From: Caryophanales bacterium
GTDB lineage: Bacteria > Bacillota_I > Bacilli_A > RF39 > UBA660
DNA: 52,047 nt
NCBI GenBank assembly: GCA_016282375.1
Contig: JAEEKI010000003.1
Span: 1 to 52,047, forward strand
Reading direction: 5' to 3'
Shown: positions 1,294 through 5,470 of the stretch, in pieces
Layout: every line of letters starts with the position of its first letter
Position numbering within the stretch: position 1 is the stretch's first letter
Program-made: the position numbers and the translations under genes
The notes under the pieces: model-generated
Databases searched by the model: none
The model's input: only the letters and a program-made list of their open reading frames with translations
What the model was told of the DNA's origin: nothing

Positions 1294-1484
1294 ATGATAT
1301 AATCCTTTCATTATTCATCATACGCTATTTAAGATATCATTGTAAATATTATAGGAATAGTTTATAATTAAATCATAAATAATAGAGTTAATATGAAGAA
1401 AATGATTTTTTAATAAATAATTTTTTTAAAAAATAGTTGCTTGAATATATATAGTATAATAGGAAATAATAAGGGAAATAAGAT

Positions 1485-2636
1485 ATGAATAAAAAGAATA
1501 CAATATTAATTATCATAGTGGTTGTTACATTGATTACGGTAATTGGTATAGCAACTTATGCTTATTTTGCAACAGGTAATTTGAATATCACTAATGTTGT
1601 TAATGCCAATACTGTAACGGAAAGAAATAACATGGTCTTTGATACCATAGGTGGTGGAATGATACTTAATATCACAGCAGCTAATATGGCTGAGAGTCTA
1701 AGTGGAAATATTGCCGCCGAGAATAATACAACATTAACCGTTAATTTTACGGCCAATACAGAATATAGTATGGTATGTACATATGATATTGTGTATGAAT
1801 GGACAAGTAGTGATAAATATACAGCTCATACAAGTGGAGTATCGTCAAATGAATTTACTATTCAAGGAACACTAGCAAGTAATGCCCATGTAACTGAAGG
1901 AACTAATAGTATTAAAAATGAAAAAGATTTATCAACACTTTCATATACAAACTATAGTGCGGTCGTCATAAGTGGAGCACAAATTGATGGAATTGGTAAT
2001 ACAATGAGTACTGCAGTATGGACATTATCAAGTAAGTTTTATAATGTAAATGCGGATCAAAGTACATTATCAGGGAAAACATATGCAGGAAGATTTAAAG
2101 TAGCCAATGTCTCATGTACAGCAGGTACAGTAACAATACCAGGACCAACTGGATACTGGTTTGCTTTATCGACATTGGATGATAATACAAATCAATATGA
2201 ACCATTATATACACACCCTAACTATGGAGGAACATTACAAAGCAGTGGGACTGCAACAGGACATAATATATATATAGGTCAAGATAGTAGTAAGTACTAT
2301 GTATGTGCAACAATACAAGAACATGAAATATGTTTAAGTCAACCATATACCCAATACGGGTTAAGCGGCCATACATATTGTAATGATGATAGTTGTTATT
2401 TTTCAAGTGCTCAACAAACAAGTGCAAAGCAAGCAAGTTACCAAGCATTTATTGATGCAGGAATAAACGTTGACATTAATAATAATTGCGGCACGAACGT
2501 CTACTACGCTGACTGCTATGTAGGCGACCTCTACTGTGGAGTGAACATCCGCGGCTATGTTTACTGTGACGATTACTCTGAGTACGTGCGCTGTGAAGTC
2601 GATCCGCTTGGCCGTGCCAGTTGTGCGGGTGACTGA
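1485..2636 (+). CDS. Membrane-anchored surface protein with a hypervariable-looking Cys/Tyr-rich C-terminus; candidate DGR target
   Basis: The 383-residue product starts MNKKNT, then a single hydrophobic helix (residues 6-28) ending ATYAYF, as in pilin-like or SipW/TasA-type exported proteins. A beta-rich, Ser/Thr/Asn-rich domain follows (about 35-215), then a section with YVCATIQ and CLSQPYTQYGLSGHT. The last 48 residues contain six Cys spaced 6-9 residues apart with many Tyr, Asp, Val and Gly. DNA for that tail is GC-rich, poor in A, and dominated by NNC/NNT codons, unlike the rest of the gene. This is what mutated Asn (AAY) codons look like in the variable repeat of a diversity-generating retroelement. 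The start is supported by AAGGGA nine bases upstream. The function is unknown; surface adhesion or receptor-type binding is inference. Confidence 0.75.
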   Translation: MNKKNTILIIIVVVTLITVIGIATYAYFATGNLNITNVVNANTVTERNNMVFDTIGGGMILNITAANMAESLSGNIAAENNTTLTVNFTANTEYSMVCTYDIVYEWTSSDKYTAHTSGVSSNEFTIQGTLASNAHVTEGTNSIKNEKDLSTLSYTNYSAVVISGAQIDGIGNTMSTAVWTLSSKFYNVNADQSTLSGKTYAGRFKVANVSCTAGTVTIPGPTGYWFALSTLDDNTNQYEPLYTHPNYGGTLQSSGTATGHNIYIGQDSSKYYVCATIQEHEICLSQPYTQYGLSGHTYCNDDSCYFSSAQQTSAKQASYQAFIDAGINVDINNNCGTNVYYADCYVGDLYCGVNIRGYVYCDDYSEYVRCEVDPLGRASCAGD

Positions 2637-2690
2637 GGTTAGTGTTTGGTCGTCCCCGCGTTATTCCGAACATCATTAATATCTTGAATC
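2487..2690 (+). other. Candidate DGR variable region (3' end of the surface protein gene and flanking DNA)
   Basis: From 2487 the sequence switches from AT-rich to roughly 50% GC, runs through the stop codon at 2634, and returns to AT-rich at about 2680. In frame, most codons end in C or T (tac, gac, ggc, cgc, aac, tgc, atc, gtc), reachable from AAC/AAT by adenine-directed mutagenesis. Apparently fixed positions such as gta-ggc-gac (VGD) and the Cys codons interleave with them. The non-coding 2637-2690 part could hold the initiation-of-mutagenic-homology element. No template repeat or reverse transcriptase is in the window, so assignment rests on composition and the adjacent hairpin. Confidence 0.55.
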
Positions 2691-2691
2691 T

Positions 2692-2713
2692 AATTTTGCC
2701 GACAGGCAAAATT
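2692..2713 (+). repeat. Perfect 9-bp inverted repeat with GACA loop, downstream of the variable region
   Basis: AATTTTGCC, GACA, GGCAAAATT: a perfect hairpin/cruciform. Short-stem hairpins with a four-base GRNA loop just 3' of the variable repeat are an established target-site element in DGRs such as the Bordetella phage system; GACA fits GRNA. It has no T-tract, and a separate terminator follows at 2769, so it is unlikely to be a terminator. Confidence 0.7.
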
Positions 2714-2768
2714 GAAGGCCAATGCGTGTGAAAACGTTAGTGTAGGCACACCAAAAATTATGTAAATC

Positions 2769-2799
2769 AAAAAAAGTTTGAATTTTCAAACTTTTTTTG
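2769..2799 (+). terminator. Intrinsic terminator of the surface protein gene
   Basis: An A-tract plus AGTTTGAA pairs with TTCAAACT followed by seven T, giving a symmetrical stem that could terminate in either direction. Confidence 0.75.
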
Positions 2800-2859
2800 T
2801 GTTTTTAAAAGGAAATCATCAATTTATCCGGTATATATATAAGTGAGAGGTGATATAAA

Positions 2860-3753
2860 ATGAATGAATTAAATTACTATAATGAGATAAAGAATGAATT
2901 ATTAAATAATGATATTAATCATAGTGTTAAAACATATTCAATTAATAAAGCTGATTTAAACGCTTATTACAATGTTGGGAAAATGCTAAGTGAAGCCGGT
3001 AAACACTATGGTGAAGGTATTATAAAAGAGTATGCTAAGAGACTTACTAGTGAATTAGGTAAAGGATATACACAAACTAGGTTAAGATATTATCGACGCT
3101 TTTATGTTGTGTTTTCAAAATGTCCGACACTGTCGGACAAATTATCATATTCTCATTATTGCGAAATAATATGGATAAATGATTATAATGAAATTAATTA
3201 TTACATAAGCATTTCAATTGAACAAAAATTGTCAGTTAGACAGTTAAGACAAAGAGTTAAATCTAATGATTATGAGAGACTCCCTTTTGATACAAAAATG
3301 AAAATAATTAACAATAAACAATTGCATGTGACTGATTTCATTAAGAACCCTATTTATATTAAGTGTAATAAAAGTGAAGAAGAAATATCAGAAAAAGTAT
3401 TACAAAGGATAATACTTGAAAATATATCTTATTTTTTAAAAGAATTGGGAAATGGTTTTTCTTTTATTGATAATGAATATAAGATTCAAATAGGAAATTC
3501 TTATAATTATATTGATTTATTATTATTTAATTATGAATATAATTGCTTTGTGGTTATAGAACTAAAGGTTACTGAATTAAAGAAAGAACACATTGGTCAA
3601 ATCCAAGTTTATATGAATTATATTGATAGGAATTTAAGAAAGGTTAATCAAGATAAAACAATTGGAATAATTATATGTAAGAAAGATAATAAGTATGTTA
3701 TTGAGTACTGTTCTGATGATAGGATAATTACTAGAGAATATCAGTTAATATAA
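2860..3753 (+). CDS. DUF1016/YhcG-type PDDEXK nuclease domain protein
   Basis: The 297-residue protein has a DUF1016 N-terminal helical region (YYNVGKMLSEAG, KRLTSELGKGYT, LSYSHYCEII, LSVRQLRQRV) and a C-terminal PD-(D/E)XK fold: IDLLLFNYEYNCFVVIELK gives the Asp and the E-x-K residues, followed by GQIQVYMNYID and TIGIIIC. Relatives are usually about 350 residues and are often found with restriction-modification and other defence or mobile genes; the biochemical role is not established. It has its own GAGAGGTGAT ribosome site and stands alone between the candidate variable region and parA. The gene contains a perfect palindrome at 3121-3139. Confidence 0.85.
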   Translation: MNELNYYNEIKNELLNNDINHSVKTYSINKADLNAYYNVGKMLSEAGKHYGEGIIKEYAKRLTSELGKGYTQTRLRYYRRFYVVFSKCPTLSDKLSYSHYCEIIWINDYNEINYYISISIEQKLSVRQLRQRVKSNDYERLPFDTKMKIINNKQLHVTDFIKNPIYIKCNKSEEEISEKVLQRIILENISYFLKELGNGFSFIDNEYKIQIGNSYNYIDLLLFNYEYNCFVVIELKVTELKKEHIGQIQVYMNYIDRNLRKVNQDKTIGIIICKKDNKYVIEYCSDDRIITREYQLI

Positions 3754-3828
3754 TTATATTATTGTTTTCATATTCTAATATTTGTAATTATATGTTAAAA
3801 TAGAAAGTAGCGATAAGGAAGTGTTAGT

Positions 3829-4614
3829 ATGGCTAAAGTTATTTCTCTAGTTAATCAAAAAGGTGGTGTAGGTAAGACTACATCTAGCATTAATTTAGCA
3901 GCTGCATTGGGCCAATTAGGGAAAAAAACGCTTCTAATCGATATGGATCCTCAAAGTAATGCTACAACAGGAGTAGGTCTAAATTCTAATGATTTTGATA
4001 ATGATATATATGAAACAATCACAGGTAAATGTGATATAGGAAAAGCAATTTTAAAGACAAAATTTAAGAATTTAAGTGTAATTCCTTCGACTTTAAATTT
4101 AGCTGGTATAGATGTTGAATTTGTTAAGAAGATGTTTTCTGATAAAGAATTTCAACGTAATAATCAACTAAAAGATGTTTTAGAACCAATTAAAGATAAA
4201 TATGATTATATTATTATTGATTGTCAACCATCATTAGGATTATGTACAATGAATGCTCTAGTAGCTAGTGATGCTGTTATTATACCTGTTCAATGTGAGT
4301 TCTATGCCCTTGAAGGTATTACACAACTTCTTAATTCAATTATTATGGTTCAAAATAGTATGAATCCTGATTTAAGAATTGAAGGTGTATTACTTACAAT
4401 GCTTGATGGAAGAACAAATATCGGTTTAGAAGTAATTGAAGAAATAAGAAAGTATTTTAAAGATAAGGTATTTAATACAATAATACCAAGATTAGTAAGA
4501 TTAGTAGAGGCTCCATCACATGGAAAACCTATCAATGAATATGATCCTGAAAGTCGTGGAGCTGAAGCATATCATAATTTAGCGAGGGAAGTGATTGAGA
4601 GAGATGGAAACTAA
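3829..4614 (+). CDS. parA: Chromosome-partitioning ATPase ParA/Soj
   Basis: This is a deviant-Walker ParA ATPase of 261 residues. It has KGGVGKTT (11-18), the A' motif LLIDMDPQ (35-42) and the Walker B-like IIIDCQPSLG. ParA binds DNA cooperatively as an ATP dimer and is stimulated by ParB to move or separate origin regions. It is followed by parB with a 10-base overlap, then DUF951 and ychF, the same neighbourhood as soj-spo0J in Bacillus, which usually lies close to the replication origin. Confidence 0.95.
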   Translation: MAKVISLVNQKGGVGKTTSSINLAAALGQLGKKTLLIDMDPQSNATTGVGLNSNDFDNDIYETITGKCDIGKAILKTKFKNLSVIPSTLNLAGIDVEFVKKMFSDKEFQRNNQLKDVLEPIKDKYDYIIIDCQPSLGLCTMNALVASDAVIIPVQCEFYALEGITQLLNSIIMVQNSMNPDLRIEGVLLTMLDGRTNIGLEVIEEIRKYFKDKVFNTIIPRLVRLVEAPSHGKPINEYDPESRGAEAYHNLAREVIERDGN

Positions 4615-5470
4615 GAAAAAAGCATTAGGAAAGGGTTTAGAAGCATTGTTTTCCAATGCCTCTTTTACGTTTGATGATTTAGAAGAGGAAATTGTCAAAG
4701 AAGAAAAACAAAATTCGATTGAAATACCTCTTAATGAAATAAGATCTAATCCATATCAACCACGTAAGACTTTCAATGATGATTCATTAAGAGAACTAGC
4801 TGATTCAATTAAAGAATATGGTGTTGTTGAACCTATCATTGTTAAAAAGAGTATTAAGGGTTATGAAATAGTTGCTGGTGAAAGAAGAACGAAGGCTGCT
4901 AAGTTGGCTGGTTTAGAAACAATTCCAGCGATTGTAAAAGACTTTTCTGACAGTGATATGATGGAAATTGCTTTATTGGAAAACATTCAAAGGGAGGATT
5001 TAAATCCCATTGATGAAGCAGAATCTATTGCTAATATCATCAAATTAAAAGGATATACACAAGAAGAATTTGCTCGTCGTTTTGGTAAAAGTCGTAGTTA
5101 TATAACTAATTTACTGGGAATATTAAAACTTCCTTCAGATGTTCAAGAAAAAGTTAAAGATGGAAAAATATCTATGTCACATGCTCGTAGTTTAAGCAAG
5201 ATTGATGATGAAGAAAAGATAACTACGATAGCTAATAAGATAGAAAAAGAAGGACTTAATGTTCGGGATGTTGAAAAAATATTGTCTAAAAAAACAGTTG
5301 CTAAAGTAGGTAAGTCATATAATTCTAATTTAAGAATTTATGAAGAAGCAATTAGTGATGCGACAGGTGGAAAAGTTAAAGTTAGTGATAAAAAAATAGA
5401 GATTTATTATGATTCTCTAACTGATTTAAATAGAATAATGGAAATATTAAACATTAATATTGAGGATTAA
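4604..5470 (+). CDS. parB: Chromosome-partitioning protein ParB/Spo0J
   Basis: The 288-residue protein has an N-terminal ParB/Srx CTPase domain with IRSNPYQPRKTF and the GERR box (92-95), then a KorB-type helix-turn-helix (YTQEEFARRFGKSRSYITNLLGI) and a C-terminal dimerisation domain. ParB binds parS, spreads as a CTP-gated clamp and recruits SMC. A TTG nine bases upstream is in frame, but the ATG at 4604 gives the conventional METKKKALGKGLEALF start. It overlaps the end of parA, so the two are co-transcribed and probably translationally coupled. Confidence 0.95.
   Translation: METKKKALGKGLEALFSNASFTFDDLEEEIVKEEKQNSIEIPLNEIRSNPYQPRKTFNDDSLRELADSIKEYGVVEPIIVKKSIKGYEIVAGERRTKAAKLAGLETIPAIVKDFSDSDMMEIALLENIQREDLNPIDEAESIANIIKLKGYTQEEFARRFGKSRSYITNLLGILKLPSDVQEKVKDGKISMSHARSLSKIDDEEKITTIANKIEKEGLNVRDVEKILSKKTVAKVGKSYNSNLRIYEEAISDATGGKVKVSDKKIEIYYDSLTDLNRIMEILNINIED

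Follow-up and report, generated by a model that had tools for sequence, protein, structure and literature searches.

The locus raises the question of how the 3' end of one surface protein gene came to differ so abruptly from the rest of the gene, and whether a DGR writes it from a distance. The window, the whole stretch of 52,047 nt that was analysed, is contig C22 of G000, a 1.08 Mb assembly in 24 contigs that is 85% complete and 1% contaminated. Our main reading, to which we give a probability of roughly 85%, is that positions 2487-2633 are a remote DGR variable repeat (VR), which is rewritten with about 20 other dispersed paralogues from an AAC-rich template (TR).

A target gene with a distinct 3' end

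The gene and its surroundings contain the following features, all on the forward strand.

1485-2636, +: target gene, confirmed as an ORF of 383 aa with a TGA stop; predicted membrane-anchored surface protein with a hypervariable C-terminus
1485-1571, +: hydrophobic N-terminal anchor helix, aa 1-29 (helix predicted at 3-29)
1632-2123, +: beta-rich N-terminal ectodomain, about aa 50-213, common to the CLec/DUF6273-type DGR target of congener G004 (L088)
2118-2486, +: constant part of the C-terminal module, aa 212-334, a beta hairpin and a long helix; found on several different N-terminal architectures
2487-2633, +: VR, with NNC/GNR codons between invariant Cys/Gly/Val; predicted five-strand, Cys-stapled meander
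2637-2670, +: non-coding tail after the stop, GC-rich and A-poor, at the place of the IMH; several sequence subtypes among paralogues
2671-2690, +: conserved 3' flank of the ATCWTTAATATCTTGAATC type, in 16/16 live and 1/20 retired copies (described below)
2692-2713, +: hairpin AATTTTGCC-GACA-GGCAAAATT, with a 9-bp stem and a GRNA-type 4-nt loop as downstream of DGR VRs
2740-2750, +: GTGTAGGCACA motif, which recurs between VR and TR in the DGR of a relative (L209)
2768-2799, +: inverted repeat, intrinsic-terminator-like, ending the transcript

No family was found for the protein in Pfam, NCBIfam or PHROGs, and an Rfam scan of 1300-3900 gave no match. A DUF1016/YhcG PDDEXK nuclease gene (2860-3753) lies directly downstream of the variable gene. 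The contig start appears to cut an IS3-type transposase ORF, of which the C-terminal part occupies the first 189 nt of the window.

The variable end carries an adenine-template signature

The base composition changes sharply from 2487, and the GC content of the VR is 56%. Among pyrimidine-ending codons of the VR, 25/40 have C in the third position, compared to 14.6% (1047/7166) in the window ORFs of at least 180 aa (binomial tail 5e-12). The abrupt switch to GC-rich, NNC-type codons in the preliminary description was thus borne out. So was its cysteine spacing, C-x8-C-x6-C-x9-C-x8-C-x9-C, which is exactly what the codon positions give (Cys codons begin at 2487, 2514, 2535, 2565, 2592 and 2622). 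The variable end had been placed at 2487-2690; the coding VR does start at 2487, but it ends at 2633, and 2637-2690 is non-coding tail and flank.

A codon-level alignment of the fetched copies gave a skeleton for the live ones (TGC NNC GCT NNC GNC NNC NNC GCT NNC TGC NNT GTG GGC NNC CTC NNC TGT GNA GTG NNC ATC NNN GGT ...), and every base occurs at its N positions. In nine full-length live paralogues, 2/51 invariant columns are A in the VR, as against 146/406 in the upstream core (p=3e-7). At codons with at least four amino acids, a pyrimidine third position is C in 124/154 cases in the VR and in 21/125 in the core (p=1e-27). The live set was picked by eye before the tests, so that these p-values describe that set rather than an unbiased genome-wide test; the TR comparison in the relative G210, given below, is independent of this choice.

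With a tighter live set and a leave-two-out comparison, constant positions of the VR were 0.89 identical between live copies (0.88 at third positions) and the core 0.78 (0.69), while template-A positions were only 0.42 identical. Constant sites that are alike beside divergent template-A sites are what homing from a shared template predicts. The signature ends with the VR region, carries on into non-coding sequence beyond the stop codon, and accompanies the 3' flank. This comparison, from which the organism's own TR is absent, indicates indirectly that the 3' end of the target would vary at template-adenine positions only. Taken with the cassette of a relative described below, in which a homologous target is accompanied by a TR, Avd and the beginning of an RT, it strongly supports the DGR origin that had been proposed for the variable end.

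Tail and hairpin downstream of the VR

After the VR, 2637-2713 holds a GC-rich tail, the flank and a GRNA-loop hairpin, and the same layout was found in L209 and G161. DGR target sites have a 7-10 bp stem with a 4-nt GRNA loop downstream of the VR (Guo et al. 2011, PMC3240598). The tail and hairpin would fit the IMH-and-hairpin layout of DGR targets, and the 9-bp stem and GACA loop at 2692-2713 resemble a BPP-1-type site. In contrast to that site, the stem in this family is AT-rich, and in several copies it doubles as a terminator or gives way to one. Where a clean GRNA hairpin would be expected, about half of the live copies show an imperfect one or a stem like that of a terminator. Several copies have a T run after the stem, which makes it likely that the stem also serves as a terminator. 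The idea that the hairpin is a terminator and nothing else was kept as partly true for the same reason. The tail subtypes of the paralogues differ beyond adenines, suggesting more than one TR or recombination among copies.

Live and retired copies in one genome

A search of the own genome with the window protein gave about 65-67 family matches, covering the N-terminal part, the C-terminal part or both, in architectures that span about 360 to 880 aa. The assembly breaks within the family, with 17/48 contig ends falling in a match. Complete 3' ends are present in 36 copies, and these divide into two groups. The 16 copies that look live have a VR GC content of 0.46-0.56, NNC-type codons, almost no invariant adenine and a GC-rich non-coding tail. 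The 20 retired copies have an AT-rich, eroded end (GC 0.28-0.42), and most of them keep the six cysteines. A ATCTTAATATCTT-type flank follows every one of the 16 live copies and one of the 20 retired copies. We infer that a copy ceases to be rewritten once its 3' acceptor signals are lost, and that selection on the domain continues. In Nostoc, remnant TR-VR homology has been found in a paralogue without a nearby RT (PMC7517822).

Further live ends lie in about three copies cut at contig ends and in one copy on contig L163 (JAEEYW010000066.1), which was assigned to another bin, Tb.RUG.7. L163 starts with 141 bases identical to those at an end of contig C14 of the own genome, and it carries rpsB-tsf, which a search did not find in G000; G010 has another set. 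Because of the exact overlap and the otherwise missing rpsB-tsf, L163 appears to be a mis-binned piece of the window's organism. The family thus extends well beyond the single gene, to about 20 live and about 20 retired copies, a context that is invisible from the window alone.

The Cys-rich C-terminal module is also present on proteins of about 745-800 aa (L065 4583-6871, L050, L069 and L072), some of which have the family-type N-terminal domain and a long middle region. At four other loci of the same genome (L057, L056, L060 and L062), the family N-terminal domain is fused to leucine-rich-repeat-like C-terminal regions, BspA-type by eye.

Machinery in the own genome and in relatives

An RVT_1 search of the own assembly (about 85% complete) gave no match, in agreement with the earlier remark that no RT lies near the gene. 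When a reconstructed adenine template was searched across the genus, its matches in the own genome were all VRs, with no TR, and exact VR and flank patterns were not found in viral contigs. Of the proposal that a remote VR is served in trans, the DGR-type VR and its remoteness stood, and the serving template and RT were not recovered from this assembly. Trans service by a resident DGR is likely. We also infer that the organism possesses an RT with a TR, that diversification is active today, and that the protein is displayed at the surface and has a role in binding.

The relatives named here are uncultured Bacilli MAGs, part of them from rumen. Among 291 genomes searched in the taxonomic family, only two others proved to contain the Cys module, and an order-level search added G161, G325 and G242. 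The main parallel is on contig L209 of G210, from another genus of the same family, whose target has the same cysteine spacing as the window protein. Its layout is target and VR, GATA-loop hairpin, AAC-rich TR, Avd gene and a DGR-type RT, of which only the first part precedes the contig end. The target ends in NVYCDASDFYCYVDSNGYVGCGDYGAGSSCYVYSAGSVYCS and the nearby TR reads SVNCNASDFNCNVNSNGNVNCNDNGAGSNCNVNSDGSVNCS. Between the VR (2716-2876) and the TR (3086-3246) there are 22 mismatches over 161 nt, and 19/22 are at TR adenines, which make up 43/161 of the TR; the three non-adenine mismatches are near the 5' edge. The VR is followed by the hairpin ATCTTTGC-GATA-GCAAAGAT and by GTGTAGGCACA, as in the window. 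The Avd protein is a bAvd (PF22296, 1.7e-9; phrog_3206, 'Avd protein of DGR'), and the RT N-terminus is 41% identical to the DGR RT of congener G004.

DGR TR/VR pairs were found in congeners G004, G005, G006 and G009, several with Avd and MutS_I-like genes, and Avd adjoins the RT in G004 and G006 as in L209. The DGRs of the genus with full RTs have CLec/DUF6273-type targets, not the Cys scaffold. Since the G004 target and the window protein have their N-terminal domain in common, one anchor appears to carry two kinds of variable tip. G161 is 96% complete. Its two copies look fresh, with NNC codons and hairpins that have GTAA/GAAA loops, and no TR was found beside its sole RVT_1 RT.

Three other candidates for the Cys-type source were rejected. 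The RT of Tb.RUG.7, the MAG that holds L163, belongs to a CLec-type DGR, and the TRs at the RT loci of G325 and G242 are CLec-type. The Tb.RUG.7 DGR (L174 274-2340) has a target with a pilin-like N-terminus and its TR just before the RT; a second YhcG gene lies just 3' of this RT (3909-4907).

Predicted structure of the variable domain

An AlphaFold model of the module (aa 212-383, 35 sequences) had a pLDDT of 94 and a pTM of 0.87. The predicted fold is a helix followed by a beta-meander, with one Cys on each VR strand and with variable and constant residues alternating. As the variable residues alternate along the strands, one face would be varied; disulfides and exposure of the variable residues are likewise suggested by the model. 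Foldseek and VIA-align found no confident relative of the module (best VIA Z 4.8, VWF D), and a PDB sequence search gave chance-level matches only. CLec was not found among the fold matches listed, an absence that is no proof of a new fold. A scaffold other than the usual C-type lectin, as had been suggested from the cysteine pattern, is likely on the predicted six-Cys meander. The N-terminal domain weakly resembles beta-sandwich adhesin and pilus subunits (Z about 6), with no confident fold relative.

Proposed mechanism and alternative explanations

An AAC-codon-rich TR would be reverse-transcribed with errors at adenines, and the cDNA would replace the 3' end of the window gene and of about 20 other dispersed paralogues. 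What would mark each acceptor is the GC-rich sequence that trails the stop codon, together with the GRNA-loop hairpin. The product would be a surface protein held by one N-terminal helix, with a C-terminal tip made of a small helix and a Cys-stapled beta-meander; the variable side chains would lie on one face, with Cys, Val and Gly as scaffold. In copies that lose the 3' acceptor signals, rewriting would stop and silent sites would drift to AT with the cysteines kept, leaving fixed variants.

What the sequences themselves show is the adenine-template signature, the live/retired split and, in a relative, a homologous cassette made up of target, TR, Avd and the start of an RT. Counting against the DGR reading are the lack of an RT or TR in the own assembly and the CLec/DUF6273-type targets of the full-RT DGRs in the genus. 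The G161 copies without a TR by its RT, the tail subtypes that differ beyond adenines and the imperfect hairpins also count against it.

One possible alternative is that a Cys-type DGR made the ends recently and that its RT and TR have since been lost, with all copies now drifting. Neither was found in the assembly, twenty copies are already retired, and G161, 96% complete, has fresh copies without a recognisable Cys-type TR. We nevertheless consider such a relic unlikely. At 17 contig ends the assembly, which is about 85% complete, breaks within the family; a contig apparently of the same organism sits in another bin, and constant third positions are kept far better in live VRs than in the core.

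In another possible explanation, paralogues recombine or undergo gene conversion with one another, the retired copies act as donors, and the resulting antigenic variation no longer involves a retroelement. The large dispersed family, the mosaic tails and constant-site haplotypes, and the homogenised constant sites of the VR would all be expected from this. In an AT-rich genome, however, recombination alone does not account for the loss of invariant adenines or for a fixed third-position C where the first two codon positions are randomised, and the mismatches between the homologous VR and its TR are nearly all at adenines. We regard it as quite improbable as the sole process, and it may act in addition to a DGR. 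The high amino-acid diversity and the GC-rich end could also come from an old adhesin family under ordinary diversifying selection, its GC-rich ends being due to foreign origin or codon bias. This is hardly credible given a signature that stops at the VR, extends into the non-coding sequence behind the stop codon and accompanies the 3' flank.

Known systems and significance

The DGR reading was compared with known systems, and its novelty was weighed against open-access papers rather than the whole literature. Mtd, TvpA and DUF6273-like targets (tentaclins) have the same 3'-end VR on a surface protein gene, with NNC-type variable codons. These CLec-type DGR variable proteins have the same hairpin after the VR, and Avd and RT are present in relatives of the window gene; they differ in that the variable domain of the window family is a short six-Cys meander. 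Remote variable proteins of cyanobacteria (PMC7517822) and Thiohalocapsa PB-PSB1 (PMC10907252) are likewise dispersed and diversified in trans, but, unlike the window family, they are CLec. PB-PSB1, which has been termed unusually rich, has 15 targets with 21 VRs at nine loci (PMC10907252), compared to 16 complete live copies, about four fragments and 20 retired copies in about 1.1 Mb here.

Roux et al. 2021 (PMC8144416) report that VR regions with an annotation are systematically CLec, and until now the C-type lectin fold has counted as the conserved scaffold on which massive DGR variation is carried. On balance, we lean towards the fuller claim that in this reduced-genome rumen Bacilli species a DGR acting in trans rewrites about 20 dispersed surface proteins on a new, non-lectin, disulfide-stapled beta-meander, with about 20 retired copies frozen. 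If there is a second scaffold, a six-cysteine one of about 50 residues, it would reveal which properties let a protein tolerate such variation, and it would offer a compact display scaffold. Surveys that start from the RT and look nearby would miss a family of this kind. With live copies beside retired ones, the birth, upkeep and freezing of DGR targets, and the 3' signals that decide between them, become testable. If true, the organism would have a bacterial repertoire made of a hypermutating set and a frozen set.
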